A DNA stretch of 48,893 bases from the NCBI RefSeq assembly GCF_902859745.1, contig NZ_CADIJW010000045.1, positions 1 through 48,893 on the forward strand, written 5' to 3'. The DNA comes from Achromobacter dolens (lineage in GTDB: Bacteria; Pseudomonadota; Gammaproteobacteria; Burkholderiales; Burkholderiaceae_B). A program made the translations under genes and the position numbers. Below the pieces are notes generated by a model. That model saw only the letters and a list, made by a program, of their open reading frames with translations, did not search any database and was not told where the DNA came from. Shown here one piece after another: positions 6,247-28,753 of this stretch (position 1 is its first letter; each line of letters opens with the position of its first letter).

Positions 6247-6248
6247 CG

Positions 6249-8895: not shown

Positions 8896-8906
8896 AGGCT
8901 TATACT
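8877..8906 (+). promoter_or_regulatory. Putative sigma-70 promoter of prs-nadV
   Basis: TTGCAA (8877-8882) and TATACT (8901-8906) with an 18 bp spacer. This AT-rich segment stands out between GC-rich genes. The -35 lies inside operator 1, and the expected start point falls at operator 2, so a protein bound at either site should block transcription. Confidence 0.5.
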
Positions 8907-8912
8907 TGCCTC

Positions 8913-8937
8913 ACTTAGTTTTAATTTGCCACTAAGG
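8913..8937 (+). promoter_or_regulatory. Putative NrtR operator 2
   Basis: An inverted repeat, ACTTAGTT, 9 bases, CACTAAGG, with CTTAGT/ACTAAG as a perfect 6 bp core on each arm. It sits at the predicted transcription start and just before the prs ribosome-binding site. It is offset 42 bp, about four helical turns, from operator 1. Confidence 0.6.
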
Positions 8938-8944
8938 CCAAATC

Positions 8945-9895
8945 ATGTTCACCCTCACCGCGGTAGTAGCAGGACAACGCCACACCGATACGCCCAGCGC
9001 GTTCGTATTCCCCGGCGGCGAAAGCCAGGTCACCGTGCCCGCTGCCTTGCAGGCCCGCGCCGACGCGGCCAGCGAATTCCGCATCCACGCCCTGCTGAAG
9101 TCGGCCGACGACGTCATGCAGTTGCTGCTGCTGACCGACGCGCTGCGCCGCCTGAACCCGGCCGCGCCCGTGCACCTGGACCTGCCCTACGTGCCCTACG
9201 CCCGCCAGGACCGCGTCTGCAATCCGGGCGAGGCGCTCGGCGCGGCGGTGTTCTGCAAGCTGATCAACGACCAGCAATACGCCACCGTCACCGTGGTCGA
9301 ACCGCACAGCGACGTCACCCCCGCCCTGCTGCAACGCGTCCGCGTCATCGACGCCGCCGCCTTCATGAAGAACGCGCTGGCCAACCCCGCCTTTGCCAAC
9401 GGCGTCACCCTGATGGCGCCCGACGCCGGCGCCCGCAAGCGCGTGCAGGCCCTGGCCAAAAAGCTGGGCGTGGCCGACGTGCGCTACGCCGAAAAAGTCC
9501 GCGACCCGCAAACCGGCCGCATCACCGAAACCCGCGTGCCCGACGACATCCCCGCGCAACCGGTGCTGGTGGTCGACGACATCTGCGACGGCGGCCGCAC
9601 CTTCCTGGAACTGGCCGCCGCCCTGCGCGACAAGACCGACCAGCCGCTCTATCTGTACGTCACCCACGGCCTTTTCAGCAAAGGCTTCGTCGAACTGAAT
9701 GCCCGCTACGCCGGGATCTACACCGCCTATGACTGGACCGCCAGCGAAGGCGCCGGCGCGCCAGTCGTGGTCAACACGATCCAGGGCGCCGACGCCACCG
9801 CGCCGGTCAACACAATCTGCGCCGCCAGCGCCCCCGCCCCCACCAACACGATCAAAGCCGCCAGCGCCCCCGCGCTCGCCACCCCGGCCAACTGA
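8945..9895 (+). CDS. prs: Ribose-phosphate pyrophosphokinase (PRPP synthetase)
   Basis: Makes PRPP from ribose 5-phosphate and ATP. The visible family features are the N-terminal FPGGESQV segment, the flexible loop region LPYVPYARQDRVC, and the PRPP-binding loop VLVVDDICDGGRTF near residues 202-215. At 316 residues it is of normal length, but it looks like the divergent Prs type paired with NadV rather than housekeeping Prs. The last 40 or so residues form an unusual Ala/Pro-rich tail with three NTI-containing repeats. The next gene, nadV, starts 22 bp downstream and consumes PRPP, so this Prs probably feeds NAD salvage. Confidence 0.93.
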   Translation: MFTLTAVVAGQRHTDTPSAFVFPGGESQVTVPAALQARADAASEFRIHALLKSADDVMQLLLLTDALRRLNPAAPVHLDLPYVPYARQDRVCNPGEALGAAVFCKLINDQQYATVTVVEPHSDVTPALLQRVRVIDAAAFMKNALANPAFANGVTLMAPDAGARKRVQALAKKLGVADVRYAEKVRDPQTGRITETRVPDDIPAQPVLVVDDICDGGRTFLELAAALRDKTDQPLYLYVTHGLFSKGFVELNARYAGIYTAYDWTASEGAGAPVVVNTIQGADATAPVNTICAASAPAPTNTIKAASAPALATPAN

Positions 9896-9917
9896 ACCTC
9901 AAGCAGGAGTCCCCACC

Positions 9918-11606
9918 ATGAACGCCTCCATCCCTGCCAAGAACGGCATCAACCCCTTGCTGCAAGCCGACTTCTACAAGACCGGCCACCCCTTCCAGTA
10001 CCCCAGGGGCACCAACAAGATCCTGGCCAACTTCACCCCGCGCTCGGCCCGGCTGGCGCCGGTGCTGCCCGAACTGTTCGACAACAAGATCGTCTGGTTC
10101 GGCCTGCAAGGCTTCATCAAGGAAATCCTGATCGACCTGTTCAACCGCGAATTCTTCGGCAAGCCCGCCGGTGCCGCCGTGCGCCAGTACCAGCGCCGCG
10201 TCGACAACGCGCTGGGCAAGGGCGCGGTCACCGTCGATCACCTGCAGGCGCTGTACGAGCTGGGCTATCTGCCGCTGGAAATCCGTTCCCTGCCCGAAGG
10301 CGCCCGCGTCGACATCCGCGTGCCGCCCGTCACCTTCGTCAACACCAGGCCCGAATTCGCCTGGCTGGTCACCTACATCGAAACGCTGTTCAGTTGCGAA
10401 TCGTGGAAGCCGTCCACCGTGGCCACCATCGCCTTCGAATACCGCAAGCTCCTGACCTACTTCGCCCGCCTGACCGGCAGCCCGATGGACTTCGTCAACT
10501 GGCAGGGCCACGACTTCTCGATGCGCGGCATGTCCGGCCTGTACGACGCCCGCAAGAGCGGCGCCGGCCACCTGCTGTCGTTCACCGGCACCGACACCAT
10601 TCCCGCCATCGACTACCTGGAAGACCTGTACGGCGCCGATTCCGACCGCGAACTGGTCGGCGGCTCGGTGCCCGCGACCGAACACTCGGTCATGTGCCTG
10701 GGCAGCAAGGAAGGCGAAATCGAAACCATCCGCCGCCTGGTCACGCAGGTCTATCCGGCCGGCATCGTGTCGGTGGTGTCGGACACCTGGGACTTCTGGC
10801 AAGTGGTCACCGACTTCGCCGCCGCATTGAAGTCGGAAATCCTGGCGCGCCAGCCTGATCCCTTCGGCAACGCCAAGGTCGTGTTCCGCCCCGACTCCGG
10901 CGATCCCGTGAAGATCCTGACCGGCTACTTCTGCACCGACGTGCCCAGTGTGGAAGACGCCGCAGCCCTGGCCGCCGCCCGCCGCGACGGATTCGAAGCC
11001 GTGCGGGATATCGAGACCGGCCGCTACTGGCGCCTGGACGACGACGCCCGCGCCAGCCAGGCGCTGCGCGAGGCCGAAGTCAACGGCGCGGTGCAATGCC
11101 TGTGGAACATCTTCGGCGGCGTGGTGACCGAGCGCGGCTACAAGCTGCTGGACCCGCACGTCGGCCTGATCTACGGAGATTCGATCACCCTGGCGCGTGG
11201 CCGCGACATCCTGGTGCGGCTGGAGAAAAAGGGCTTCGCGTCGGGCAACGTGGTCCTGGGCATCGGCTCATACACCTATCAATACCTGACCCGCGACAGC
11301 TTCGGCTGGGCGCTGAAGGCGACGTATGCCGAGGTCGACGGCGAACCGCAGGAACTGGTGAAGGACCCGGTCACCGACTCCGGCGTGAAGCGGTCGGCCA
11401 AGGGCTTGTTGCGGGTCGATGAGACAGCGACGGGGTATGTGTTGCACGACCAGCAGACGCCGGAGCAGGCGGCCGGCGGCGCGCTGGTGCCGGTGTTCCG
11501 GGATGGGGTTCTGCTGGTGGAGCAGGATCTGGCGCAGATCCGGGAACGGTTGCAGGGGTCGTGGGTTTGTCCGGAGCCGGGGAGCATTGATTGGGGACGG
11601 CGTTGA
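9918..11606 (+). CDS. nadV: Nicotinamide phosphoribosyltransferase NadV
   Basis: This 562-residue enzyme converts nicotinamide plus PRPP to nicotinamide mononucleotide, one step in NAD salvage that bypasses deamidation. Family motifs are NPLLQADFYKTGHPFQYP at the start, SWKPSTVATIAFEYRK, NWQGHDFSMRGMSG, FRPDSGDP (phosphate/PRPP binding), LIYGDSIT and GIGSYTYQYLTRDSFGWALKA, all as in human NAMPT. It is longer than typical NAMPT (about 490). The ATG at 9918 has CAGGAGT eight bases upstream; the frame is open further upstream but overlaps prs. It is cotranscribed with prs and likely repressed by NrtR when NAD or ADP-ribose levels signal sufficiency. Confidence 0.95.
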   Translation: MNASIPAKNGINPLLQADFYKTGHPFQYPRGTNKILANFTPRSARLAPVLPELFDNKIVWFGLQGFIKEILIDLFNREFFGKPAGAAVRQYQRRVDNALGKGAVTVDHLQALYELGYLPLEIRSLPEGARVDIRVPPVTFVNTRPEFAWLVTYIETLFSCESWKPSTVATIAFEYRKLLTYFARLTGSPMDFVNWQGHDFSMRGMSGLYDARKSGAGHLLSFTGTDTIPAIDYLEDLYGADSDRELVGGSVPATEHSVMCLGSKEGEIETIRRLVTQVYPAGIVSVVSDTWDFWQVVTDFAAALKSEILARQPDPFGNAKVVFRPDSGDPVKILTGYFCTDVPSVEDAAALAAARRDGFEAVRDIETGRYWRLDDDARASQALREAEVNGAVQCLWNIFGGVVTERGYKLLDPHVGLIYGDSITLARGRDILVRLEKKGFASGNVVLGIGSYTYQYLTRDSFGWALKATYAEVDGEPQELVKDPVTDSGVKRSAKGLLRVDETATGYVLHDQQTPEQAAGGALVPVFRDGVLLVEQDLAQIRERLQGSWVCPEPGSIDWGRR

Positions 11607-12116
11607 TGAGGCATACGAAGCAGCTGGGATTTCGTCCTCCACCGCTCGATGAACCAGCGCGTTACGAGCCGTCGTCTCACCTGCAGGACTAGTTTCCAGT
11701 ACCGCCGCCCTGCTGGCGGCGGGCGCCCGTTCTATAGCGCACGGCCAGCGACGCGAGATACCTGTTGCCGGAGGTGCTGATCAATGCCTGCCGGTTCGGC
11801 CCCTCGATGGCGTCGCGCAAGGAAGATGGGACGCTGCCTTACGCTTGGCGCTATCTCGCCTGGGACTTCCCCAATGCATCCGTCTATCGACGGCATCAGC
11901 TGCAACTTGGGAACTCACGCCGCTCCCATATTCGGATTTAACCAATATGGTTACGTATGGCATTTATTTGCAGTGTATATTTACGCGTCATTCTCCATTC
12001 GGCCATTTGAGGTTTCACGTCAGACATCGTGACGATCTTAATCGGCGTTCCTTCCGGAATATCCGATTGGCCGATCGAGACCTGCATTTCACTATCACCT
12101 CACAATAAAACTGGAT
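11607..12116. other. Intergenic region with a probable minus-strand gene remnant
   Basis: GC content falls through this stretch. A minus-strand frame ending at 11689 reads SLRDAIEGPNRQALISTSGN and then RYLASLAVRYRTGA before a Gly-rich end. It looks like the C-terminus of a real protein but is cut by stop codons upstream at about 11840, so it is probably a remnant. A perfect hairpin CCGCCGCC/GGCGGCGG (11702-11722, 5-base loop) lies in it; it has no T-run, so a terminator for nadV is uncertain. Nothing else is supported. Confidence 0.4.
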
Positions 12117-12512
12117 ATGAAAAAGACGATAGCGCGCGCATGCATCTCCCTTATCACTCTTGCAACCCTTGGCACGACTTCCGCCTGGGCTCAAGAACTG
12201 ACTATTCCCCAAAAGAATGCCGTGCGCTCGGCCAAGCAATACCTCAGTTTTTCCGGATTCTCACGCAGTGGCTTGATTCAGCAGCTGTCGTCCGACGCGG
12301 GTGACGGATACAAGGTTGCGGATGCCACAATCGCGGTGGACAGCCTCAAGGTGGATTGGAACAAGCAGGCCGCCCGATCCGCACAAAATTATGTGGATAT
12401 GACGGGTTTTTCGTGCAAAGGCCTGATCCAGCAGTTGTCGTCGAGCGCAGGCGACCGGTACACCAAGAGCGAAGCGACCTACGGCGCCAAGGCCGTGGGC
12501 GTGTGCGAATAA
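12117..12512 (+). CDS. Ltp-like exported protein with two tandem repeats
   Basis: This 131-residue protein has a clear Sec signal peptide (MKKTIARACISLITL..., cleavage expected after AWA at residue 25). Two copies of a roughly 45-residue repeat follow, each with the pattern (N/K)xAxRSAxxYxxxxGFSxxGLIQQLSS(D/S)AGDxYxxxxATxAxxxx. This matches the Ltp (host cell surface-exposed lipoprotein) repeat, known from phage-encoded superinfection-exclusion lipoproteins of Gram-positive phages and found in many exported proteins of unknown role. No lipobox Cys is present, so it is probably periplasmic. GC is lower than its neighbours. The last residues include a lone Cys (GVCE). Confidence 0.75.
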   Translation: MKKTIARACISLITLATLGTTSAWAQELTIPQKNAVRSAKQYLSFSGFSRSGLIQQLSSDAGDGYKVADATIAVDSLKVDWNKQAARSAQNYVDMTGFSCKGLIQQLSSSAGDRYTKSEATYGAKAVGVCE

Positions 12513-12559
12513 ATAGCGGGCCCCCGGGAGGCTCATCACGATCCAGGCAGTGGTGCCAA

Positions 12560-12868
12560 CTATGGGTTGGTGAACAGCCTCCCCTGCAAGTTCTTCCACA
12601 GATGCGTGGCGATGCTTGCCCATATCAGCGCCAAAAATCCAATGCAAAAGAGCGCAGCGAAACAAGCAAGCGCCTTCCAGTAAAAAGGACCATAGCGATC
12701 AAATTCAGTGATGAAAATTTCACCGAACTCCATCGTCTTCTTGCTCCAGAACCAAGCCAGGGCAGCCGAACCCATCGTAGCGATCACTACCAACCAGCCG
12801 GGAAATTCTGCGAGGCTATAGCGCCGCCGATTCTTGAAGAACGCTTTCACAGTAGACATGCAGCCCAT
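12560..12868 (-). CDS. Small two-pass membrane protein of unknown function
   Basis: A 102-residue protein with two hydrophobic segments, about residues 23-41 (FPGWLVVIATMGSAALAWFW) and 63-88 (YWKALACFAALFCIGFLALIW). The N-terminus is basic (KAFFKNRRRY), which predicts a cytoplasmic N-terminus. The ATG at 12868 is chosen because AGGAGG lies six bases upstream; the longest frame starts 26 codons earlier without such a site. It converges with the Ltp-like gene. Lower GC than the flanks suggests the two arrived together. I do not recognise a family. Confidence 0.6.
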   Translation of the reverse strand: MGCMSTVKAFFKNRRRYSLAEFPGWLVVIATMGSAALAWFWSKKTMEFGEIFITEFDRYGPFYWKALACFAALFCIGFLALIWASIATHLWKNLQGRLFTNP

Positions 12869-13082
12869 AATTCCTCCTGAGCTCAGTAGATGAATAAAGC
12901 GGAGTGAAGCCCCAGTTTGTAGTCTAATCACCAGAGATATTGTCAAGCCCCGATCGCGCGCATGGCCAGCACTGTCTTAACGGTCAGAAGAAAATGCGTC
13001 TGCAACGTGACCGCAGGCGCCAGAAAAATTGCTTGTTCTTTTGGAATACACTGCGGTAGCCGTCCATGCCACCGATTGAAGT

Positions 13083-14043
13083 TCAAGCGGACCGCACCGC
13101 CGGCGGCACATGCGGCAGAAACGCCCCCGCCACCTCGAACGCGCATTCCTCCCGCGCAATATCGATCACCCGCGACACCACCGGATTGACGATGCTCTTC
13201 TTGTGCACCGCGTAGTAATTGATTGTCGGCAGATCCGGCTGGACATCCAGCTGGCACAGCGCCCCGCGCTCGACCAGCGGCGCGAAATACGCCCCGGGCA
13301 AGTAACTGATGCCCAGCCCCAACATCGTCAGCTGCGCCATCATGCCCAGGCTGTTTGCAGGTCAGCACCCGCTTGACCGACAGGCCCTGCTCGGCGAACC
13401 AGGCATCGTACAGATGCGACAGCGCCGAATTGGTCGGCTGTGAGATCACCGGGTACGGCGCCAGGTCCTGCGGCGCCAGCCTTGCCGAGAAATCGATGTC
13501 CAGCGACGGGCTGGCCATCCAGACGTTGGTCACCGCGCCCAGATGGACGCAGTCGTATTGATAGCTCCAGAACGGCCCCGGCATGATGGCCAGGTCCAAC
13601 TGGTCCTGCTCCAGCCGCTCATACAGCGTGATGCCGCCATCGATCTCGGGCATCAACTGCACCTTGGGATAGCGCAGGCTGATCTGGTTGACCAGCCGCG
13701 CCAGCCAGGTCATGCCGACCAGCTCGGTCACGCCCAGCCGCACCACGCCCTCGAAACTGGCCGGGTCGGCCATGTTCTGCACGATGCGGCTGTTCAGGTC
13801 CAGCATCTCGCGCGCCAGCTCGAACAGCTTGCGGCCCTGCGCCGTCAGCACCAGCTTCTTGGCGCGGCGCTCGAACAGCGGCGCGCCGGCGAAGGCTTCG
13901 AGTTCCCCTACCCGCTTGGCGACCGCCGACTGGGTGGTGTGCAGCTTGCGCGAGGACGCGCTGAAGCTGCCCAGTTCCGAGCTCCAGTAGAACGCCTCCA
14001 ACTGTTTGAGGGTGTACATCGCGGCGGTGGACGTGAAATGCAT
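13083..14043 (-). pseudogene. LysR-family regulator interrupted by a 1-bp frameshift
   Basis: Residues 1-230 form a normal LysR protein (YTLKQLEAFYWSSELGSFSASSRKLHTTQSAVAKRV), then the frame breaks. Reading one base out restores the expected continuation LGMMAQLTMLGLGISYLPGAYFAPLVERG to a stop at 13083. The break lies in an A-run (TTT on the plus strand, 13354-13356): ACCTGCAAACAG reads correctly if one A is removed, giving TCNSLGMM. Repaired, the protein is about 319 residues, the usual LysR length. It is downstream of, and on the same strand as, the amino-acid importer operon and may have regulated it. A sequencing error in the homopolymer is as likely as a real mutation. Confidence 0.85.
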
Positions 14044-18486: not shown

Positions 18487-19163
18487 TTCGCGGCTCCCGT
18501 CTTCTCGGCCAGCGTCTTCTCCAGCCAGGGCTTGGTGTAGGTGCCGGCGCGCAGCTTCTCCTTGGCCACCGCCTCGTCGGCTTCCTTCTTGGTCGCCAGC
18601 GCCAGCACCGCCGCGGCATGCTCGGCGGGAATCACCACCACGCCGTCGGCATCGCCGACCACCACGTCACCCGGGTTGACCACCTGGCCGCCCACCGAGA
18701 CGGGCACATTGATCTCGCCCGGACCATCCTTGTACGGCCCCTTGTGCGACACCGCGCGCGCAAAGCAGCCGAACTGCCCCTGCGCGAACACGTCCAGGTC
18801 ACGCACCGCGCCGTCGATCACAAACCCGGCGATGCCGCGCCCCTGCGCGTCCATCATCATCAACTCGCCGACCAGCGCATTGCTGGTATCGCCAGCGCCA
18901 TCGACCACGATCACGTCACCCGCGCCACCCAGCGAAATCGCCTTGTGGATCATCAGGTTATCGCCCGGCCGCGTCTTCACGGTCAGCGCCAGGCCAACCG
19001 TGCGCTGGTTGCCGGCGTGCAGCGGCCGCAGCCCGCTGACGCCGTACAGGCGGTTCATGCAATCGCTGATCTGGGCCGAGCCAATGGCGGCAAAACCGGC
19101 CAGCACGTCAGCGGCGACGGCCGGCGCGGGCCGGGGAAGAATGCGGTATCCGATGGGATTCAT
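18483..19163 (-). CDS. RraA-like family protein (HMG/CHA aldolase or oxaloacetate decarboxylase type)
   Basis: A 226-residue protein of the RraA-like fold. The segment IAGFVIDGAVRD carries the Arg-Asp pair (about residues 121-122) used for substrate and divalent-metal binding in 4-hydroxy-4-methyl-2-oxoglutarate aldolases; GELMMMDAQGRG and VVGDADGVVVIPAEH are other family blocks. True RraA, the RNase E inhibitor, belongs to the same fold, but the metabolic neighbours favour an enzyme. The ATG at 19163 is chosen since the family starts here; the frame extends to 19238. It is the first gene of the operon and its stop overlaps the aminotransferase start. Confidence 0.85.
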   Translation of the reverse strand: MNPIGYRILPRPAPAVAADVLAGFAAIGSAQISDCMNRLYGVSGLRPLHAGNQRTVGLALTVKTRPGDNLMIHKAISLGGAGDVIVVDGAGDTSNALVGELMMMDAQGRGIAGFVIDGAVRDLDVFAQGQFGCFARAVSHKGPYKDGPGEINVPVSVGGQVVNPGDVVVGDADGVVVIPAEHAAAVLALATKKEADEAVAKEKLRAGTYTKPWLEKTLAEKTGAAK

Positions 19164-19247
19164 AGCGAGGAATTTTCTTGAAGGCGTGAACGGCAATAAG
19201 CGAACACGCATTACAAGGCCTCGCGGGGCGATCCTCAAAACGATATA

Positions 19248-19269
19248 AATTCCCGGTTATGTAGGAATT
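19248..19269 (-). promoter_or_regulatory. Palindrome upstream of the RraA-aminotransferase-ABC operon
   Basis: AATTCC, 10 bases, GGAATT, in an AT-rich stretch about 85 bp upstream of the first gene of the operon and next to a TATATCG sequence. This is a reasonable place for an operator, possibly for the LysR protein at the end of the operon. Assignment is positional only. Confidence 0.3.
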
Positions 19270-19281
19270 ATTTTCGTGGAT

Positions 19282-19611
19282 CTATTGGATCGAGGGGGGA
19301 GCGTCGTGGGTGGGGTTGGGGGCTTCCCTGTCGTCGTCGGATTGCAGGGCCTGGTCGAGCATGGCTTCGGTCAGGGTGCCGAGGTGCTCGCAGAGGCTTT
19401 CGACGCCGCCCATCAGGGCGGAGATTGCCCAGGGGTCCAGCGGTGGAGAGCCGGTGGCGTCGGGTTCGGACGCGCTGTTGCCGACCATGCGGGCGATGGT
19501 CTGGATGGCGTAGCGGGTGCGGTCCAGTTGGTGGAGGTGGGAAAGGGAGACGGGGCCGGATTCGCGGTCGGTGTCGATTTGCCAGGGGTTTTGGGTTAGG
19601 GGGTGCAGCAT
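19282..19611 (-). CDS. Small protein of unknown function behind a structured RNA leader
   Basis: A 109-residue acidic, soluble protein (LHPLTQNPWQIDTDRESGPV, then LDRTRYAIQTIARMVG, ending in a Ser/Asp/Pro-rich tail). The ATG at 19611 is preferred because CTATAGGAGGCAGCCC precedes it; the frame is open to 19770 but would run through structured leader RNA. The middle (RYAIQTIARMV, AISALMGGVESLCEHLGTLTEAM) should be helical. I do not recognise a family. The leader's C4-like antisense arrangement recalls phage immunity operons, where the first small ORF is the regulated step. Confidence 0.6.
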   Translation of the reverse strand: MLHPLTQNPWQIDTDRESGPVSLSHLHQLDRTRYAIQTIARMVGNSASEPDATGSPPLDPWAISALMGGVESLCEHLGTLTEAMLDQALQSDDDREAPNPTHDAPPSIQ

Positions 19612-19616
19612 GGGCT

Positions 19617-19849
19617 GCCTCCTATAGCGAGTGGAGAACCCGCCTCCCCGCTTCCAAACGGGGCGGGCGGGCACAAGACAGGGTTGGAAGACCGGAGCTA
19701 TAGGACCCGGCGTGCGCAAGCGCACCCCCGTCCAGGCCCGCCCATAGGGACGTGCGTAGACGCTGGACATGAAAATGCCGCCTGAGCGGCGGCTGTCCCG
19801 CCTATAGCTTACCCGGCTTCCATTCCGGGACTACCGTTGGTGCGGTAGT
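19617..19849 (-). ncRNA. C4-like antisense RNA locus / structured leader
   Basis: On the minus strand the RNA holds, in order: hairpin ACTACCG/CGGTAGT (19849-19830), hairpin CCCGG/CCGGG with UGGAAG in its loop (19829-19812), GCUAUAGG (19808-19801), a terminator hairpin, then CCUAUAGCU (19704-19696) and CUUCCA (19690-19685). A second hairpin follows with UUUGGAAG in its loop (19658-19651), then GCUAUAGG (19628-19621) running into the ribosome-binding site AGGAGG. The middle element is complementary to both parts of each flanking element (CCUAUAGC to GCUAUAGG, CUUCCA to UGGAAG). This two-part antisense design around a ribosome-binding site is that of phage P1/P7 C4 RNA. Exact RNA ends and processing are unknown. 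Confidence 0.6.
19771..19793 (-). terminator. Intrinsic terminator inside the C4-like leader
   Basis: A 6 bp perfect GC stem GCCGCC/GGCGGC with loop GCUCA, followed by AUUUUC on the minus strand. It would end a transcript begun near 19850 after about 80 nucleotides, giving a small RNA containing the first two hairpins and one GCUAUAGG element. Confidence 0.6.
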
Positions 19850-19855
19850 GGGGGG

Positions 19856-19861
19856 AGTATA
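19856..19861 (-). promoter_or_regulatory. Candidate -10 box of the C4-like RNA
   Basis: TATACT on the minus strand, seven bases before the first hairpin of the leader. No good -35 was seen at the expected distance, so support is weak. Confidence 0.35.
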
Positions 19862-20159
19862 CGGGAGGAAAGGATGCATCGTAGAAATGGGGAGGGACAA
19901 TTTGGCTACTTGTGTCGACACACGGCCGTGAGGCGTCACTGAAAGATACCGTCTAAGCGACCGCTATAGGCTGATCTGAGTCATTCACAGTTGAGTCGTT
20001 CACAGTTCTGGGCCTGAGCGAGGTTTCTCGCCAACACCGATCGCCTAATACCGCTGACTTGGCAGACAGGCGCCCGGCGGAAGTCCGGCGTTTACCGTCA
20101 TGCCGCCACTGCTGTTACGCTTGTTTAACAACGATATATTCGTGCAATAGGGGATAAAC
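19862..20159. other. Intergenic region upstream of the OLD-family gene
   Basis: Low-GC stretch between the divergent C4-like locus and the nuclease gene. It contains one more GCTATAGG (plus strand, 19962-19969) and a direct repeat GAGTCATTCACAGTT / GAGTCGTTCACAGTT at about 19978-20006. AT-rich sequence with TATATT (20135-20140) lies just upstream of the nuclease start and may be its promoter. No gene is supported. Confidence 0.45.
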
Positions 20160-22193
20160 ATGGCAGGAGCAAATCGATCCAGGCTTGTACGCATCACCGT
20201 GCGCAACATCGGATGCATCGGCGACGACGGCGTAGAGATCGAACTAGACAATGTTGTTTGCCTGGTCGGCAAGAACAACGCGGGCAAGTCCACCATCCTG
20301 CGCGCCTACGAACTGGCCAAAGGTTCAGTCCAGTTTGATGAGAACAAGGACCGCTGCCTGCATGCCCCGTCGGACAAGCCCTCCGAAGTGCTTCTGGAGG
20401 TTCACATCCCAGACGGCATTGGTAACGTCGACTCGCGGTGGAAGGAGGCGAAGGACGGATTGCTAATCGTCAAGAGCCGCTGGCAATGGGCACCCGGCAA
20501 GTATCAGAAGGTCCGCACAACGTGGGATCCGTCTGGAGGTGCCGACGAAAAGGGGGCGTGGGCTGAGGACGGCAAGGCCGGAGGCGCGGATCCAGTCTTC
20601 AATTCCAGGTTGCCCCGTCCGCTTCGCATCGGTTCGCTGGATGACGCAGCGAAGACCGAGGAGATGCTGCTCACCCTAGCGCTGGGTCCGCTGTTGGCCG
20701 GCCTCGAGAAGGAGCGGATCGATCCGGCGTCCGCGCTTTCCCTCGCTCTTGCAAGCGTCACGACGCGAGTCAAATCACTCAGCGGCATGCACGAGAAGCA
20801 CTTCAACGGCATATCAGGCCGAGTGGCACAAGGGTTCAAGCGGGTATTCCCGCGCCTGGACGTGAAGCTGAACATCGCGGCGAGTCCGATCGTGCCCAAG
20901 CTCGCCGACCTCCTCAAAACGGGCTCAAGTCTCATCGTCCAGGATGGAAAGACGCAGACGTCGCTCCACCAGCAGGGAACCGGCGCACGGCGCGCGCTAT
21001 TCTGGTCCATGCTCCAGGTCCACAACGAGTTGTCACGCGACAACGAGGTCCGGCAGGAGTACAGGAAGCGACTGGAGAAGGAGCTGGAAGCAGCCCGGGT
21101 GAAGCGCAAGAAAGAGGCGGACAAGGGACCGGGGAAAGCCAAGGAAGCTGATCTGCAGGCCTACGACAAGATCATCGCGGAATGTAACTCACGCCTGAAA
21201 GCTCACGACGAAGACGGCAACATTCCCGACAGCGAGGACGACCCGGCATTTCCGGGCTACTTACTGCTGATCGATGAGCCAGAGAACGCGTTGCACCCAA
21301 TGGCCGCACGGGCTGCGCAACGCCACCTGTACGAACTGGCGAAACATCCCGACTGGCAAGTCATCATGACCACCCATTCGCCCCACTTCGTCAACCCGTT
21401 CGAGGATCATACGACTATCGTTCGCCTCGAACGCGAGAGTGAAGATGACGACGCGCCTATGGCGCCTAAGACCTATCGTTCGGACGAGATTGAATTCGAG
21501 TTCCAAGACGACGACAAGCAGCGCCTGCAGGCCCTCCAGCACATCGACCCGAGCTTCTCCGAAGTGTTCTTCGGCTCCTACCCCGTGCTTGTCGAGGGTG
21601 ACACGGAGCATGCCGCCTTCATGTCGTCCATCATTGAGCGTGGACACGGACTCACGGACGAGGTGACAGTCATCCGCGCTAGGGGCAAAGCCATCCTGGT
21701 GCCGCTTATAAAGGTCATGACCCACTTCAAGATTGACTTCGGCATCGTGCACGATGTAGACCCGCCATACAAATCGAACGGGCACCGCAACGGCATGTGG
21801 ACCGAGAACGACAAAATCCGCGAGGCAGTGCTTAAGGCCAGAACGGCTGGCCTAGCCGCCCGGCACAGGATCAGCGTGCCCGACTTCGAGCGCTTCCTCG
21901 GCGGTGAGGAAGAGTCCAAGGACAAGCCACTGAATACCTACCTGATGGTGGCCAAGGACGATGCCATGGCGCTACGAGTCCAGACCCTAATGGCGGACTT
22001 GCTGGACTCAGACCAGCACGAGCCGTTCGCTGACGGCGCGCTGGGTACCAGCGACTACCTGACCTGGTTAGGCACCAAGATCAAGGACTGGGCCGAGGCG
22101 AACGGACAGGCAAACAATATCCGCTTCCAGGGACCTGCTGCTGCACCGGCAACAGGAGGTGCTTCGCCCTCAGCGCTACCGGAGGGAGGCTGA
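20160..22193 (+). CDS. OLD-family ATP-dependent nuclease (ABC ATPase plus Toprim)
   Basis: A 677-residue protein. The N-terminal ABC/AAA15-like ATPase has Walker A GKNNAGKST (residues 37-45), a signature-like HQQGTGARRALFW, Walker B LLLIDEPENALHP (Asp372, Glu373) and switch TTHSPHFV. A charged coiled-coil segment lies at about 305-340. The C-terminal Toprim domain has the conserved Glu in PVLVEGDTEHAAF (Glu479) and the Asp-x-Asp in VHDVDPP (532-534). OLD nucleases cut DNA and act in phage defence alone or with partners, as in GajA of Gabija. No UvrD-like GajB gene is adjacent; instead a HEPN-motif protein follows after 144 bp. The ATG is preceded by AGGGGATAAAC. Confidence 0.88.
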   Translation: MAGANRSRLVRITVRNIGCIGDDGVEIELDNVVCLVGKNNAGKSTILRAYELAKGSVQFDENKDRCLHAPSDKPSEVLLEVHIPDGIGNVDSRWKEAKDGLLIVKSRWQWAPGKYQKVRTTWDPSGGADEKGAWAEDGKAGGADPVFNSRLPRPLRIGSLDDAAKTEEMLLTLALGPLLAGLEKERIDPASALSLALASVTTRVKSLSGMHEKHFNGISGRVAQGFKRVFPRLDVKLNIAASPIVPKLADLLKTGSSLIVQDGKTQTSLHQQGTGARRALFWSMLQVHNELSRDNEVRQEYRKRLEKELEAARVKRKKEADKGPGKAKEADLQAYDKIIAECNSRLKAHDEDGNIPDSEDDPAFPGYLLLIDEPENALHPMAARAAQRHLYELAKHPDWQVIMTTHSPHFVNPFEDHTTIVRLERESEDDDAPMAPKTYRSDEIEFEFQDDDKQRLQALQHIDPSFSEVFFGSYPVLVEGDTEHAAFMSSIIERGHGLTDEVTVIRARGKAILVPLIKVMTHFKIDFGIVHDVDPPYKSNGHRNGMWTENDKIREAVLKARTAGLAARHRISVPDFERFLGGEEESKDKPLNTYLMVAKDDAMALRVQTLMADLLDSDQHEPFADGALGTSDYLTWLGTKIKDWAEANGQANNIRFQGPAAAPATGGASPSALPEGG

Positions 22194-22337
22194 TTGACCT
22201 TCGCGAGTCTCCGATACCCGGCATATCCGGTAGCCCTGCAGCGCGTGATCTCGCGGAACCTGCGCACGTTCTCGACACAGTCCCGCGACTTAGTAGACGC
22301 GCAGGTCTGAACCGTGGCTCAAGAATAGGGAATAGGC

Positions 22338-23561
22338 GTGAAAGCCAGAAAGTCGATCGCTGTACCGGACCTGCCTGCAAATATGAGAGACATGGTACAA
22401 GCGGCACTCCAAGAGCTGGAGCCCGCCGGGCCTCCGCGTTCGCCTGAGGAAAGACGCGGGCTAATGTTGTCGGCGCGAACAGAGGCCAGTCGGGGCCTTC
22501 CGTCCTACTACCTTGTCTATTTTCTTCTCGTTGATCTACTCGAGTTCCCGAGTCTTGGTAAATGGGAAAAGACCGCGTGGACGGTACCCGTCAGGTTTCG
22601 CAGTCGCCTGTACAGCATAGAGCATAGAAAGATGGGGCTCGGCGTCTTCGAACCCAATCTCGACCCCAACGCGAGAATGAGCGGTCGGCCAAGTCAGCAA
22701 GGCGAGAAGGACGCGACCGCTATCGTCGAAGCGATCAAGAAGGCCGTCTCAGTTGCGGCCCCATACTTCCAGTGGCGTGCACAGCAAGCAATTGCGACTT
22801 CTGATCTGAACGTCGTCAACAAAAACTCCGATCTGTTCGCACGCTACGAGTATTTTCGCGACCAGTTCAACGCAAAGGTCGGTGAAAGCAAGGAGCTGGA
22901 AAGTAAGGCGAAGGACAGAAAAAGCGAATCCCCTGGAACGTTCAACTTCGAGTTCATCTCATCATGGTTGTCGGTTAACAAGCAAGTGAACTGGTATGCG
23001 CTGGCTGCCATCGAAGCTTTCTTCAGTTGGACTGAGCATGCGTTCATCCATCTCGCGATACTTCAGGGAAAGCTGACCGTGGGTACGCAAGTTGCGGAGC
23101 TCGCCGAGGACAACTGGAATGCGAAATTCAAGGCCGCACTGGACATCTCGGATAAAGACACCAAAGTGCACTACGACAAGCTCTTGGATCTTCGTGCACA
23201 GGTAAGGAACTTCGTGGCTCACGGGGCGTTCGGCAAAGAGGGCCAAGCGTTTCGTTTCCATTCGGGTGCTGGCTCCGTCTCCGTTATGCTGTCCGACGAC
23301 CGAGACCATCAAGTTAGCTTCACAGGTCGCGTCGCTTTCGATGAGGCGTCGGCGATAACGGAGATCGGTTCGTTTCTTGAACACCTATGGGCGGGAGCAC
23401 TGGCACCCGCAAAGCACTATCTTTTCAGTGCCCTTCCTAGCATTCCGTCATACGCGACTGATGGTACCTACGCACGCGCTATGCAGTCCGAGGAGAATAT
23501 GCTCAGTTTCGTCGACGGCCTGACTCGTCGGTTCGAGCAGGCTGCAGACATGGCTTGGTAG
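22338..23561 (+). CDS. Uncharacterised protein with a HEPN-type RNase motif
   Basis: A 407-residue protein that I do not recognise as a named family. The key observation is LDLRAQVRNFVAHGAFG, in which Arg290-Asn-x-x-x-His295 fits the HEPN active-site motif R-x4-6-H with a polar residue after Arg; it sits in a predicted helical region after helical segments rich in aromatic residues. HEPN proteins are RNases or toxin components in many abortive-infection and toxin-antitoxin systems. The frame begins with GTG at 22338 after AGGGAATAGGC; an in-frame ATG at 22386 is an alternative. Same strand as the OLD nuclease and probably in one operon. The HEPN assignment rests on one motif. Confidence 0.6.
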   Translation: MKARKSIAVPDLPANMRDMVQAALQELEPAGPPRSPEERRGLMLSARTEASRGLPSYYLVYFLLVDLLEFPSLGKWEKTAWTVPVRFRSRLYSIEHRKMGLGVFEPNLDPNARMSGRPSQQGEKDATAIVEAIKKAVSVAAPYFQWRAQQAIATSDLNVVNKNSDLFARYEYFRDQFNAKVGESKELESKAKDRKSESPGTFNFEFISSWLSVNKQVNWYALAAIEAFFSWTEHAFIHLAILQGKLTVGTQVAELAEDNWNAKFKAALDISDKDTKVHYDKLLDLRAQVRNFVAHGAFGKEGQAFRFHSGAGSVSVMLSDDRDHQVSFTGRVAFDEASAITEIGSFLEHLWAGALAPAKHYLFSALPSIPSYATDGTYARAMQSEENMLSFVDGLTRRFEQAADMAW

Positions 23562-23884
23562 GCCTACGAAGCTGCAGAAACGGACGGTAGTACCGGCGCA
23601 AGATACCATCAAGATGCCTACGCCATAGGGCAGCTTGAGCATGTCGGTCCGTTGATTTCGCGAACAGAGCTATTTGCTTGACCTCGACGGCTGGCGTCCG
23701 CTTTGCGGCGTCATCCGCCGGTCGCCTGAACAACTGGAAGGCCAATCGCTGCACAGCAGACGTTGCCCGAGGGGCTCCGACTGACCGATTAGGGTCGAGA
23801 GCGGCCGGACACGAGTGGCGCCTTCCGACCCACTGCAGACATTCTAGTGCTTTCTGCGCAGCTTCGGTGGAATGAAAGTTAGCC
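23562..23884. other. Intergenic region, decayed repetitive sequence
   Basis: No credible gene. The stretch contains fragments such as GACGGCTGGCGTCCGCTTT and TTCCGACCCACTGCAGACATTC that resemble the degenerate intergenic sequence seen again at about 26220-26390 and 27040-27080. It separates the plus-strand nuclease/HEPN pair from minus-strand genes, so it may also contain terminators, but no clear hairpin with a T-run was seen. Confidence 0.4.
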
Positions 23885-24700
23885 TCAGGATTCAGATTCT
23901 TCATCTTCGGCAGCCATTGCATCAGCATGAGCATTCCATGTGTCAATCATCCACGGCGGTAATTGATCGTGCCGCTTTACGGAAACCCTAGAGTTCGCGT
24001 ATGGCATATGTGGATCTAGGACCGTGCGGACCAATAGCATGTCATTTGTGATTTGTATTGGCGCAACTAGGTCCGGTGCGTTGGTAATGTTCTCGCGATC
24101 TTTAAGGTAGAGAGGAACAAGATGGTTCATACTTCCGTAATACCAATAGGGAAGCTGTAATCCTCTGTTTAAAGACCATTGAATCGAGCCTGAAATCGCG
24201 CACATTTGTGCAACTGGTGGGACGTCTTTTAGAAAGCTAACCCGGTCTTCGTTGTCTTTCAGCATGTGGTCATGTTGCATGACAATTTCCACCCCTTTAG
24301 GTATTTCTGGGCCTTTAGGGATTTCTGGCGGTGCGGGCAATTCTGGTGCGTTGATTTGTGAACCAGCCTTGATCAGCTTCCATGGCGTCTTGCCCTCCTC
24401 AGTGCCTTTTATGAAAACCAAATATAAAGGGGTCCCATACCGAGTTTGCAAATTCCCTGCGGAAACATAAAACTGGTCTTCGGAGAAAGTGACCTTTCCT
24501 TGCTCAATGCTCCAAGCAATATGAACGGCAAGGTACTTTTCAAGAACATGTAGATCATTCCCCCATTTCTCGCTAAGCGCTTGGGTGGAAAGTTCTTGTA
24601 GAACTCTGGGGGGGATGTATGCGAATTTATGTAGCCGCTTAATTAATTTATTTGTATAGCTGGTCCCGATGTCTTTTTGCAACTGGTCTAGTGTAATCAC
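23885..24700 (-). CDS. DUF3825-like protein
   Basis: A 271-residue soluble protein with GTG start. The segments LHKFAYIPP, EKWGNDLHVLEKYLAVH, a middle Pro-rich linker (APPEIPKGPEIPKG), HDHMLKDNEDRVSF, SIQWSLNRGLQLPYWYYGSM and the C-terminal LDPHMPYANSRV match the order of conserved blocks I associate with DUF3825. The function of that domain is not established; it is often found in proteins linked to RNA-binding or stress modules. A Glu/Ser-rich tail (AAEDEESES) ends the protein. GC is well below the core genes. Nearest neighbour upstream is the GIY-YIG gene on the same strand, 295 bp away. Confidence 0.6.
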   Translation of the reverse strand: MITLDQLQKDIGTSYTNKLIKRLHKFAYIPPRVLQELSTQALSEKWGNDLHVLEKYLAVHIAWSIEQGKVTFSEDQFYVSAGNLQTRYGTPLYLVFIKGTEEGKTPWKLIKAGSQINAPELPAPPEIPKGPEIPKGVEIVMQHDHMLKDNEDRVSFLKDVPPVAQMCAISGSIQWSLNRGLQLPYWYYGSMNHLVPLYLKDRENITNAPDLVAPIQITNDMLLVRTVLDPHMPYANSRVSVKRHDQLPPWMIDTWNAHADAMAAEDEESES

Positions 24701-24995
24701 TTGATGTTCCGAAGATAGGAGAAGGCCAACTTGATCTAGCAGGCGTGTAGAAGACAGGTCTAGTTAGCTCGATAATGCCTGACATTGCAGCTTTAAAGGC
24801 AGGGTGGCTCGTGCAATGTCGCATGACTGTCTGAATAGACACCTGCTAAACATCAACATTGACGATCGAACGACTGCTTCTAGCCGGATACCGACCACCG
24901 CGAGAGGCGTTGAAGAAGGGCAAATGTCCAAATCTGCGGCCTGATCGCTGCGGCCTCTTCGTTGGTCAGGACGGTGATTGGAGGCTATCAGACGA

Positions 24996-25586
24996 TCAAC
25001 GTTCCGAGTCGATGTTGAACCAGGGGCGGAAATGCCCAACGAGCCTGTCCTCAGCAAAAAAGCGCTCAGCGACAGCATTTTCCGGGAACTCATCGCACCA
25101 GGAAAAGCCTACGCTATCGGCAATAAGCGCCAACGGATCAGATTCGGCTGGGAAGATATGTTCAATTCCGAAGCGCAATTGACAAGATGAAGTCCGGGGC
25201 TTTGTCTTGAGGTTCCCCGATAGTGCTCGATGTGCACGCCCTGCCGTACCGGGCAAAAGATGTTCGCGAAAGCGGCGCCTCAAATTGGTCGCTTTGCCGA
25301 CGTACAAACAGGGGAACGGGGCCTCCGCTGGCCACCAGTCGTGATAATGCACGTCCACACTCTTGCCTCCTGGCCCTTTCAGTACGATATGCCGATTGGC
25401 TTGAAGTAGCTGCTCCCTACTTCCGGTCCACCAGAAAGCGTAGACCCCTGCGCTCAATGGCACAGCGGGCGGAATTCGCGCGTCTCGTAGATCTTTCACC
25501 CGGCGAACCGAAGCCGCTGTAAGCATTGTGCCCGTCAACAATTGCCAAGCAACTTGCACTTCCCCGACTCTATCCCTGTTATTCAT
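24996..25586 (-). CDS. GIY-YIG nuclease family protein
   Basis: A 196-residue protein with the GIY-YIG core: GVYAFWW at 47-53 (GIY variant), CLYVGKATNLRRRFREHL from 93 (YIG variant with the conserved Arg and His), and a C-terminal Glu in AVAERFFAED (Glu174 or Glu179) followed by RPWFN. These residues form the single-metal nuclease site in the family, so the enzyme looks intact. No extra DNA-binding domain is evident; the insertion between the two halves (residues 54-90) is longer than usual. It could be a restriction-like, repair or mobile-element nuclease. It stands alone on its strand with 150-300 bp gaps on each side. Confidence 0.78.
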   Translation of the reverse strand: MNNRDRVGEVQVAWQLLTGTMLTAASVRRVKDLRDARIPPAVPLSAGVYAFWWTGSREQLLQANRHIVLKGPGGKSVDVHYHDWWPAEAPFPCLYVGKATNLRRRFREHLLPGTAGRAHRALSGNLKTKPRTSSCQLRFGIEHIFPAESDPLALIADSVGFSWCDEFPENAVAERFFAEDRLVGHFRPWFNIDSER

Positions 25587-25745
25587 GCGTTGTTCGTTCT
25601 GGTCAGATGCTGAGATATGAATGCTTCGGTCACGACGACTGCTGCGTCGGTTTTACTGGCTGGAAGCTGTTGGCGAGAGGCTTAGGACGGCCGCTAATGG
25701 CGAAGCTAATCTGCCAATAGAAGGCGGGTCAGCTTGAGTGCAATT

Positions 25746-26105
25746 TCAGTCGCGAGACAAAACCAGCTTTCCGCCGGCATTGGAAACAACTTTGTACCTG
25801 CGCAAGGAGTTGAGAGCGCCTACACCCCCAGCAGCGACTGCGATACTTACCGCCGACAAAGCGGCAGGAAGCCCAAGTACTGTGACGGCACCTACACCGA
25901 CGGCACCGCTGATTGGCGCACCAGCCCCGCCAGTACCCAAAGTGATAGCTACGGCAATGCCAATTGCACCGATGGCGATCACCCAGGCAACCGTGCCTGT
26001 TGCTTTAATTCTCAGAACCTTATTTTGCAGGTCACCTTCAATTTCAATGGTGTCTTGATCATTCTTCAGTGCCTTTCCAAGCTCTTCCTCAGTTCGAACT
26101 GCCAT
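25746..26105 (-). CDS. Small glycine-rich membrane protein
   Basis: A 119-residue protein. The cytoplasmic-looking N-terminus (AVRTEEELGKALKNDQDTIEIEGDL) leads to two long hydrophobic Gly/Ala-rich segments at about 39-57 and 65-96 with several GxxxG-like spacings, then a basic turn (NSLRRYKVV) and a short tail. The ATG at 26105 has GGAGGAATC directly before it; the longer frame begins six codons earlier. Similar small proteins with an N-terminal polar domain and a Gly-zipper membrane region are common in accessory regions, and their role is not settled. A pore-forming effector is possible but is only inference from composition. Confidence 0.7.
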   Translation of the reverse strand: MAVRTEEELGKALKNDQDTIEIEGDLQNKVLRIKATGTVAWVIAIGAIGIAVAITLGTGGAGAPISGAVGVGAVTVLGLPAALSAVSIAVAAGGVGALNSLRRYKVVSNAGGKLVLSRD

Positions 26106-26411
26106 GATTCCTCCGATTGCCAATACTTCGTTTTCGATGCCGAGCGTGAAATGTTGTTACACGGTTTAACATCATAAGTGTAAGCAGCCTCGGTCGCAAA
26201 TGTGCTGTCGCCGAGTCTGGGCAAGTCGGAAATTTTCAGGGCTCAGTCAGTGGCCAGCGAAAAAACCGATGGCCGAAAGGCCGTATCTGCCGCATTGTGC
26301 CGGGGGTGTGACCGGCCGGTTTTGGCCGCAAGCTGTCGCAGTCGAACGGCAGGTTCCGACCCAAAGCTGTCTCTCGTAAGAGTTCCAAGCTGGTCATAGC
26401 CAGTCTCCAAA
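26106..26411. other. Intergenic region with degenerate repetitive sequence
   Basis: No gene supported. The part at about 26270-26390 contains GACCGGCCGGTTTTGGCCGC, AACGGCAGG and TTCCGACCCAAAGCTG, which resemble pieces found at 23690-23860 and 27040-27080. The upstream 60 bp probably hold the promoter of the small membrane protein. Confidence 0.4.
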
Positions 26412-26975
26412 TCAGAATTTCCAGTGTTCCTCGACCTGATAAAGCGGCTTGCCAGCCATTAGTAACTTGATAGCATCTATGTGGGTCACGTAGTCAGCCT
26501 CAGAAAAATGCGTCCACCGCGGATTACTCTTTTGCGCGGCGAGAAATGCTGCACGTGCCTCAGACATAGACTTGCGGTTTTTCCACAGAAAGGTGCGTAG
26601 CCCTTTGAACAGTTCGTAGTCTAGCGGTGGATGGAGCAAGGCAACATTCGGATGATGATGGTGACCACCGCAGACTAATATCGCTTTTAAGTAGATGTTG
26701 ACCAGCTTTTGAGCGCGACCAAAGGAAAAATCGCCGATTCCCAGTCGCACAGCTTCCGAATCGATTTTCTTCATAAAGCTCATCTGCCATTCATCGACGT
26801 CCTGGCCAATGTCGTCTGGGCCGGCTACCTGACCTAGGCCACTTACCTCAATTAGTCTAAAAGCCAGAGAGTTACCACCGTCTGCTAGACCACGGCCATA
26901 CGCGGCAGCAGCGCACCACCTGGCATACATGTCTTTGTGTTTCTCGATGGAATACTGAGTTAACGGTATAGACAT
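26412..26975 (-). CDS. Protein of unknown function
   Basis: A 187-residue, probably helical soluble protein (KHKDMYARWCAAAAYGRGLA, DEWQMSFMKKIDSEAVRLG, FGRAQKLVNIYLKAIL). A run of four His in CGGHHHHPNVALLHPPLDYELF is notable and could bind metal. I recognise no family. No strong ribosome-binding site precedes the ATG at 26975, although the codon pattern and absence of stops support a real gene. It is an orphan in the island, on the same strand as its neighbours, with an AT-rich upstream region. Confidence 0.55.
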   Translation of the reverse strand: MSIPLTQYSIEKHKDMYARWCAAAAYGRGLADGGNSLAFRLIEVSGLGQVAGPDDIGQDVDEWQMSFMKKIDSEAVRLGIGDFSFGRAQKLVNIYLKAILVCGGHHHHPNVALLHPPLDYELFKGLRTFLWKNRKSMSEARAAFLAAQKSNPRWTHFSEADYVTHIDAIKLLMAGKPLYQVEEHWKF

Positions 26976-27204
26976 ACTGTTTTTTACTCACGAACAGTTG
27001 AGGTAAGCATTTTTTCGATAAGTCTCCATAGCTCATATGCCTTGAAATGTCGGCTTTTGGCCGAAAGCGGAGCCAGTTGCAGAGTACGCTCACTCAGGTT
27101 AAGCGAACCACTAGGGTTATTCTCAACATTTCCAAGTTCAATGAACCCAGATTTGGCGGATAGATGCCCGGGCAGCGGAGTTCAAACGCACTCCCCCGAT
27201 CGAA

Positions 27205-27777
27205 TCAGGAGTTTCCACCCATCGGAAGCGGCGTTCTGTCCACTTTGCATACCTCTGTCTTCTTTACGGCCACGGGCTTCGTGCGCACTACGCCATCCAC
27301 CACGACAAGCTCGCGCAAGACCGTATTAGGATGTTGATAGAGCGTCTCGTAGTCCTTCCCGGGTTCAAGCACTGCGGTAATCGACTGGCCAAATTCCGTG
27401 CTGTACATGGACATACCTATCGAATTTGGAGCACTCCACCCACCGCCCCGTGAATAAATGTTGATCGGAATCCCGGCCATGACGACGTACTCGGAATAGT
27501 ACTTTTCGTCGATATTGGGCATAGGCATGCCTATCACCGTATTGCTGATTCCGCGTACCAGGGGGTCGTTGGCTTCGAAGCTGTACGAGCGCGTGCTATC
27601 GAGGCAGGTATGGTTCAGGGTAATTCTGGTCGGGGGTCCAAAATAAACCCGCAACCGGGCGCTTGCTGTCGGATCATATGCTTTTGGAAGATATGGGCTA
27701 CTGGGCGCACACCCCGAGACTAGCGCAACCAAGGCAATTATCGCCGTCGTTTTCTTCATTCCCTGCATATTCTTCAT
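27205..27777 (-). CDS. Putative lipoprotein of unknown function
   Basis: A 190-residue protein with a lipoprotein signal (KKTTAIIALVALVSGC, lipobox LVSGC) and a mature part rich in beta-type sequence (ARLRVYFGPPTRITLNHTCLD, ending VCKVDRTPLPMGGNS). Two Cys in the mature part (CLD and VCK) could form a disulfide. The ATG at 27777 has GAAGG eight bases upstream; an ATG at 27759 is also possible, and the longest frame begins at 27810. Upstream lies an AT-rich stretch (27815-27855) that likely holds the promoter. The function is unknown; location is likely the outer membrane, facing the periplasm. Confidence 0.65.
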   Translation of the reverse strand: MKNMQGMKKTTAIIALVALVSGCAPSSPYLPKAYDPTASARLRVYFGPPTRITLNHTCLDSTRSYSFEANDPLVRGISNTVIGMPMPNIDEKYYSEYVVMAGIPINIYSRGGGWSAPNSIGMSMYSTEFGQSITAVLEPGKDYETLYQHPNTVLRELVVVDGVVRTKPVAVKKTEVCKVDRTPLPMGGNS

Positions 27778-28753
27778 CTGCGTGCCTTCAATACAATGCG
27801 CCATCAACATTAGATTTGTGTTTATATTTATCGAAATATAACATTTATAGTGAGATTCTGGCGCGTTGCTCGCACCCGATCGATTTCCGAAGGGAAGAGA
27901 AAGCCCGCCTTCGGTACGTTAGGTGCCTTATGTCGTTGCCTGATCTACGCAAAGAGTCGCCGCTCGGCTCGTACTCCAACTACCTTGAGTATCAGGTCGG
28001 GCGAACCCTCGTATGAGTGCTGTTTGGTGGCCCGGCACAACGAGTCATTGCCCTAGAGTCGGCCTGTCAGCAGTTTCCTTCGATCTAGGCTGCGATCCCC
28101 GCGGCTATCTCGGAGGCGGACCACGCCTCTCCCATCGAACCCGCCTGAGTTCTGGAAAGTGCCTAAAGCGGCGTTAACTTCAAGCAAAGTTCTTTCAGTG
28201 AGGGGCATTAGGATTGAGCAAGTCTCTGGGATCGCAACATACGAGGTCAGTACCAATCAAGACTTTGATCCACCTCAGCAAGTGGAGCTCTCCCCGTTTC
28301 CGGATGAGCGTTATGTCATGATAGAACGTAACAAGGAAGGTTTCATTAGTACCCAAGCAAGGTGAGGCTGTGCTCAGCAGGCACTGAACGCCTGCCACCA
28401 ATCGAACGAGCAACGGACTTTGCTTGCGCTGGCCGACGGTTATGCCAACCTTAGGCCTCATCATCCCGCAGCGTCCGAGAAATCTGTCGACCCACGTCCC
28501 TCTGGTTTGATCCCACTAAACCGCCGTCCGCAGCGAGGGCAGAAACGCCTAAACAGCCACTTGAGCCAACGCACGGCGGCAAGCTCCTGCTCGCGGCTTA
28601 GCGCCAGCATTAGCTGTATGCTTCTAACCGCGCATTGACGGCTCCTAGCCAATTGCAGACTTTTTTGATCGTCTATCTTGGCGCGCTTGATGAAGGAGCC
28701 CGTTGTCTAGTGAGCACAGAAAATCAAGCCTCTCATGCCCAAGGAGCGTGAAC
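27778..28753. other. Long intergenic region without a supported gene
   Basis: Almost 1 kb between the lipoprotein and the macrodomain gene. Frames here are short (under 120 codons), lack ribosome-binding sites and look like chance openings; one at 28159-28365 (plus) has somewhat protein-like sequence but no start signal. Base composition is mixed, with pieces resembling gene remnants. It may mark past insertions or deletions. Confidence 0.45.

Follow-up and report, generated by a model that had tools for sequence, protein, structure and literature searches.

A candidate stand-alone HEPN-motif defence family beside a class 1 OLD nuclease in an Achromobacter dolens accessory island

Class 1 OLD proteins, among them P2 Old and the OLD of T. 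scotoductus (PDB 6p74), combine an ABC ATPase with a Toprim nuclease and lack a helicase or reverse transcriptase partner; each is described as a single, isolated gene (PMC10568477). In Gabija, an OLD nuclease, GajA, is accompanied by the UvrD-like helicase GajB. RNases of the HEPN type recur in bacterial immunity as a killing domain, and are found both in CARF-HEPN proteins such as Csx1 and Csm6 and in single-protein defence genes. ApeA is a stand-alone gene with a C-terminal HEPN domain. It is counted among the HEPN defence proteins in PMC13405049. PMC3710099 describes helix 3 as ending in the HEPN motif Rx4-6H. HEPN proteins also have an upstream acidic residue, typically as Ex3[KR], near the motif in helix 2.

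The window analysed here (the whole stretch of 48,893 nucleotides) contains an OLD gene followed on the same strand, after a gap of 144 bp, by a gene for a protein with a HEPN-type motif. Both reading frames are exactly those of the initial annotation, which had proposed that the two form a two-gene defence system; the simplest reading is instead that a class 1 OLD nuclease gene and the gene of a stand-alone HEPN-motif protein, two independent defence genes, have been brought together. The features are as follows.

19994..23757, plus strand: 3.76-kb unit made up of a leader, the OLD gene, the HEPN-motif gene and a tail of ~195 bp, common to a Variovorax megaplasmid of unrelated context
20160-22193, plus strand: OLD gene, 677 aa
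22224..22337, plus strand: leader preceding the HEPN-motif gene, also retained by relatives without OLD (Comamonas, Xenophilus)
22338-23561, plus strand: HEPN-motif gene, 407 aa, GTG start
23205..23222, plus strand: codons of R290-N-F-V-A-H295, the putative RNase active site

The genes lie within ~19-30 kb of the window, where GC content is 0.51-0.61 as against 0.65-0.74 in most of the remainder (with a further dip, to 0.58-0.59, at 11-14 kb), in keeping with the low-GC accessory island noticed at the outset. Positions 19994-23757 correspond to positions 5650-9421 of the Variovorax megaplasmid locus (L007) at 94.8% identity, and a comparison of 18500-25800 with that locus gave no match at E 1e-3 beyond the ends of the unit; since the flanks are unrelated, the OLD and HEPN-motif genes have travelled as one unit. 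The HEPN-motif gene possibly carries a promoter of its own in the leader at 22224..22337; a simple promoter scan over 19900-24000 gave no sigma-70-like site.

Judged by its sequence, the OLD ATPase-Toprim nuclease encoded at 20160-22193 is intact and of the class 1 (single-gene) type. Its Walker A motif is GKNNAGKST, D372-E373 is present, and E479, D532 and D534 line up with the OLD of PDB 6p74, so that every residue on which the initial annotation had based its call of an intact nuclease is in place; the Pfam models AAA_15 and OLD-like_TOPRIM both match above cut-off. We assign it to class 1 because the PADLOC model for Old scores far above that for GajA (5.7e-65 vs 9.3e-23) and because 6p74 is its sole strong solved relative (1.7e-17, catalytic residues aligned). 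Neither a helicase nor a reverse transcriptase was found in the six adjacent open reading frames scanned (five to the right, one to the left) or in the HEPN-motif protein, and the reported absence of Gabija's UvrD-like helicase thus stands for these neighbours. The resemblance to Gabija lies in the presence of an OLD nuclease and in two HEPN-motif relatives elsewhere that adjoin Gabija loci, whereas the scanned neighbours in the window include no GajB and the OLD protein fits Old far better than GajA. It differs from described class 1 proteins in its length (677 aa vs 528 for 6p74) and in adjoining another candidate defence gene, a neighbour present in the window and in L007 and not found within the 1.5- or 4-kb flanks of nine other OLD homologues.

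The 407-aa protein comprises an N-terminal alpha/beta portion of ~200 aa, of uncatalogued family, and a helical C-terminal portion that bears R290-N291-x3-H295. Searches with the window protein gave no match at E 1 in Pfam, PADLOC or NCBIfam and only chance-level matches in PHROGs (0.012) and in the PDB; as first suggested, it falls outside any catalogued family, having no confident match in Pfam, PADLOC, NCBIfam or PHROGs. The family thus looks new to these four libraries, while the kind of system is already known. A literature search on accession WP_032248694, HEPN defence, P2 hotspots and OLD, with supplementary tables outside its scope, found no description of the family.

The Arg-Asn-x-x-x-His pattern reported initially is present as R290-N-F-V-A-H295 and proves invariant across a divergent family. 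In one sequence such a motif is weak evidence, because shuffles of that sequence often contain it: R-x4-6-H occurs in 4121 of 5000 shuffles of the window protein, and R[NDH]x3-5H in 842 of 5000. Family-wide conservation turns it into strong evidence at the level of sequence. R290, N291 and H295 are unchanged in 10/10 rows of alignment A3, 13/13 of A4 and 15/15 of A6 (window included), with rows that reach down to ~19% identity; alignment A5 took in one N-terminal fragment that stops short of the motif. N291 supplies the polar residue (N, D or H) expected right after the Arg in all three alignments. Shuffling the alignment columns produced an invariant R, N/D/H and H at the right spacing 9 times in 10000 for A3 and 12 times in 10000 for A4; as the rows are related, these counts are not formal P-values. 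Upstream acidic residues are found in helix 203-242, as E or D at 226 and as E233 (K in one row), and are not of the Ex3[KR] form.

An AlphaFold model of the whole 407-aa protein (mean pLDDT 78.9, pTM 0.59) is helical over most of 203-296, with helices at 203-242, 249-257, 260-267 and 273-296, followed by a low-confidence stretch at 296-331 (loop pLDDT under 50) and a helix at 336-350. The C-terminal part modelled alone (pLDDT 74.1) has the same layout, with an added low-confidence strand pair after the motif. The modelled position of the motif, within the helical C-terminal half, fits the published HEPN description, because R290-H295 ends helix 273-296 after three helices and before helix 336-350; the motif thus closes the counterpart of helix 3 and is followed by a loop and the counterpart of helix 4, the numbering of helices being by analogy. 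Profile matches point the same way at low strength. Csx1_HEPN is the sole Pfam model matched by more than one member of the family, 4 of 16 members all falling below cut-off (best E 0.0031, 18.3 bits vs a cut-off of 23; the window protein gave none), and HEPN_RiboL-PSP and HEPN_Swt1 match one of these four over the same stretch. Three HEPN models coincide over one stretch across the motif in the most divergent row, where they stand among other matches of chance strength such as PLU-1 (0.02). Four of the six PADLOC models matched by members are Csx1/Csm6 or CARF-HEPN models, all weakly, and the best single match is to PDC-M03B (0.0014). Among the 50 matches listed for each structure search, with Foldseek on the full model and VIA-align on both models, none named a HEPN protein, an absence that excludes nothing, and hhalign against small HEPN_RiboL-PSP alignments was not significant, column shuffles reaching the observed score in 0, 6, 3, 25 and 1 of 60. 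Because no HEPN structure was named, hhalign was not significant and profile matches are weak, we call the protein HEPN-motif, probably HEPN; on the model, a HEPN fold of the C-terminal domain is probable, not proven. The HEPN call made initially therefore holds for the motif, which is invariant and ends a modelled helix, and lacks a counterpart in any above-cut-off profile match or in the structure matches listed.

The conserved RNxxAHG might alternatively be structural, or belong to another active site within a new helical fold that is not HEPN. Such a fold would account for the want of a HEPN protein among the structure matches listed and of an above-cut-off match to a HEPN profile, and further conserved residues (H234, K263, F298, K300, H308) do surround the motif; we nevertheless regard it as rather unlikely, given that the motif, the Asn that follows, the helix position and the weak matches to several HEPN models all agree, and that structure and profile searches cannot exclude a family absent from their listings. 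Taking the domain as probably HEPN, its nearest HEPN RNases by these weak profile matches are Csx1 and Csm6, with which the family shares an Rx4H motif with Asn after the Arg, a length of ~400 aa, a putative N-terminal sensor joined to a helical C-terminal domain, and a motif that ends a helix. Unlike them, the HEPN-motif gene has no CRISPR neighbours that we noticed and no separate CARF model match, and the family has neither an above-cut-off match nor a HEPN protein among the structure matches listed. In its presumed manner of working it resembles ApeA and other single-protein HEPN defence genes, being a gene that stands alone in defence regions and has its HEPN motif in the C-terminal part, although no ApeA model is among its PADLOC matches and no HEPN_Apea among its Pfam matches.

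Relatives of the HEPN-motif protein are rare. The close ones, at 72-91% identity, are in a same-genus genome (G022, L012), a Comamonas MAG (L003), Xenophilus (L004), Leptothrix (L005) and the Variovorax megaplasmid (L007). Those at 40-45% are in a Chlorobiaceae MAG (L006), an Erythrobacteraceae plasmid (L008), viral or prophage contigs (L028-L031, L036) and two same-phylum genomes (L024, L041), one of which holds two broken pieces as well (L026, L027). More remote are a broken copy at 23% identity in a third genome (L025) and copies at ~19% on two rhizobial plasmids (L010, L011); on a Mesorhizobium plasmid (L009) the gene is in separated pieces. Counting the window's own genome as one in each case, the family occurs in 2 of 300 relatives, 3 of 398 phylum genomes and 2 of 369 class genomes, and a search of that genome finds the window copy only. 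Viral-contig searches with family alignments gave four and five matches, and with the window protein alone or the divergent L025 piece none; a phage collection gave no match to the family. The gene is under purifying selection, with dN/dS of 0.09-0.38 among six close relatives, with or without OLD.

This distribution bears directly on whether the two genes form a pair. OLD adjoins the HEPN-motif family in two loci, the window and the Variovorax megaplasmid, and these represent the one common 3.76-kb unit. In Comamonas, both ends of the unit (19992-20153 at 82% and 22224-23757 at 94%) are joined directly, OLD is absent and the HEPN-motif gene is intact; the Xenophilus match starts at the same inner point, 22224, and the match in G022 extends only over 22292-23705. 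In a protein tree, the rows with OLD as neighbour are two of the four that make up one unresolved crown group. Two 300-genome searches found both genes together only in the window's own genome, with the HEPN-motif gene and no OLD in G022 and the other gene in G038, G216 and G278. Around nine other OLD homologues (L013-L018, L020-L022; 39-75% identity), BLAST gave no match to the 407-aa protein within flanks of 1.5 kb for three and 4 kb for six; 7 of the 14 plasmid records with OLD matches were examined, Variovorax included. Close to one of the nine, L018, a gene annotated as HEPN-domain lies ~3 kb upstream of the OLD homologue and has no BLAST match to the 407-aa protein.

The initial annotation had set conserved co-occurrence as its own test, and none was found. 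A true two-gene system, in which OLD would sense or cut the DNA of phages and license an RNase effector, the HEPN protein, is therefore rejected on the distribution of relatives, and we give it very little credence. In its favour are the shared strand and 144-bp spacing within one unit in two hosts, and the similar synonymous divergence of the genes between window and Variovorax (dS 0.107 for OLD and 0.120 for the HEPN-motif gene; dN/dS for OLD is 0.11), together with the OLD-family GajA near the HEPN-motif gene in L005 and L008 and the different HEPN-annotated gene at L018. Against these, Comamonas keeps the unit without OLD and its HEPN-motif gene remains under constraint, neighbours differ elsewhere, and no OLD match lies beside other relatives except for the remote similarity of GajA in L005 and L008, both of which carry GajB also, in L005 on the opposite strand. 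(Neighbours were checked by BLAST at the earlier loci and judged from annotation or open reading frames at the later ones; short or truncated flanks at L024-L027 and L041 limit the survey there.) A tight two-gene arrangement can thus be a recent composite, with relatives revealing the OLD and HEPN-motif genes as independent modules.

We consider it somewhat better than an even bet (a probability of roughly 0.55) that the 407-aa protein belongs to a stand-alone, mobile HEPN-motif defence family that probably acts by RNA cleavage and abortive infection, with OLD separate. Its N-terminal half (~residues 1-200) would probably detect an infection cue, and its C-terminal helical half would probably dimerise and cut RNA through R290, N291 and H295; cutting would stop translation, and the infected cell would yield no phage. 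The OLD nuclease would be a separate single-gene defence element travelling with it in one recent unit. More tentatively, the family may be an uncatalogued one that combines an N-terminal sensor of its own with an RNxxxH RNase domain, the fold of which matches no solved structure found, and that serves as an interchangeable module on chromosomes, plasmids and P2-like prophages.

Outside E. coli, neighbours vary. In L005, PADLOC identifies GajA and GajB, which lie on the opposite strand, and in L008, GajA and an annotated helicase lie downstream. The upstream neighbours are TIR and a deoxyribosyltransferase-like gene in L006, and in L036 an AriA/AbiLi-like ATPase together with a further RNxxxH protein; L012 has a 1590-aa protein with a weak AAA match. 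In L008, an Xre/MbcA/ParS-type antitoxin-like gene also lies upstream and overlaps the start of the HEPN-motif gene by 4 bp. This overlap, and the many HEPN proteins that are toxins (PMC3710099), would suit a toxin of a toxin-antitoxin pair, an idea compatible with stand-alone defence, so that their odds overlap; we hold it improbable, as no antitoxin-like gene was seen in the other loci and the gene that precedes the HEPN-motif gene in the window is OLD.

The E. coli relatives place the uncatalogued family in a known prophage defence hotspot. Eleven of 5426 E. coli genomes carry the gene, and in ten it lies between replication gene A and portal gene Q of a P2-like prophage (from annotation in eight; inferred in EA7 and 45E, where the TIR gene lies at the same distance). 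This gpA-gpQ region is described as a defence hotspot (PMC9122126; PMC9519451), with tested systems (PMC9122126). Four kinds of module lie downstream in the ten prophages: TIR in three, a STAS-like trio in five, a 557-aa protein in one and a different trio in one; further neighbours, a 314-aa protein and a 416-aa P-loop protein (P-loop judged by eye), come from two viral contigs. With modules that vary in this way beside it, the gene behaves like an exchangeable module of one gene. TIR was rejected as a partner, occurring in nine E. coli genomes of which three have the HEPN-motif gene, as was the STAS-like trio (20 genomes, five in common). A 189-bp open reading frame just upstream in the P2 prophages was likewise rejected as an antitoxin: it is matched in 1088 of 5426 genomes, as against 11 with the HEPN-motif gene, and is therefore a general P2 gene, which also speaks against the toxin-antitoxin idea. 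Accessory cargo with a non-defence role, such as prophage or plasmid maintenance, would fit mobile settings that include prophages and plasmids, and the hotspot holds non-defence genes too, for example a putative partition system (PMC9122126); we think this decidedly improbable, because the gene is found near OLD, Gabija, TIR and AAA genes on chromosomes, plasmids and prophages alike. The eleventh E. coli copy (L033) is outside P2, with IS3 elements next to it and a type VI secretion cluster close by.

In the Comamonas metagenome-assembled genome (locus L003), the region upstream of OLD is fused directly to the leader of the HEPN-motif gene at 5886/5887, with an inner boundary, corresponding to window position 22224, that is identical to that in Xenophilus; this junction is the scar of a clean OLD absence. 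OLD has a different neighbour in a same-genus genome (locus L020): behind the homologue there (75% identity) lies a gene, at 3591-4706, that looks methyltransferase-like on inspection by eye.

The HEPN-motif gene is itself found in varied company. On viral contig L036 (1465-4180) it lies immediately downstream of an ATPase matching AriA/AbiLi/GajA models and a 305-aa protein with an RNxxxH motif of its own (RNLLVH). In the Chlorobiaceae metagenome-assembled genome (L006, 3626-5923), genes for a TIR protein and a nucleoside-deoxyribosyltransferase-like protein and the HEPN-motif gene are consecutive on a single strand. The Erythrobacteraceae plasmid (L008) carries at 3175-13116 a compact defence island, in which genes for a DNA methyltransferase and a DEAD/DEAH helicase, an antitoxin-like gene, the HEPN-motif gene, GajA and a helicase are consecutive. 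Within the P2 hotspot, four unnamed modules behind the HEPN-motif gene replace one another and are candidates for further defence genes:

L045 5991-7664, 557-aa protein
L034 6491-9334, trio of hypotheticals
L030 7613-8557, 314-aa protein
L031 7402-8652, P-loop protein

The flank at window 19347-19866 is shared with a second species of the genus (L012 292-809, 83% identity), where it adjoins a different island. That island contains a separate HEPN-motif gene copy, a gene for a 1590-aa protein with a weak AAA match, and other large genes. The site bordered by this flank is a candidate chromosomal defence hotspot.

Further low-GC genes adjoin the OLD/HEPN-motif unit at window 23885-27810, all on the minus strand:

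within 23885-27810, minus strand, DUF3825 protein (1.7e-10)
within 23885-27810, minus strand, GIY-YIG-like protein (match slightly under the cut-off)

Three other minus-strand ORFs there match no family above the cut-off, and one of the three has a weak lipoprotein signal.
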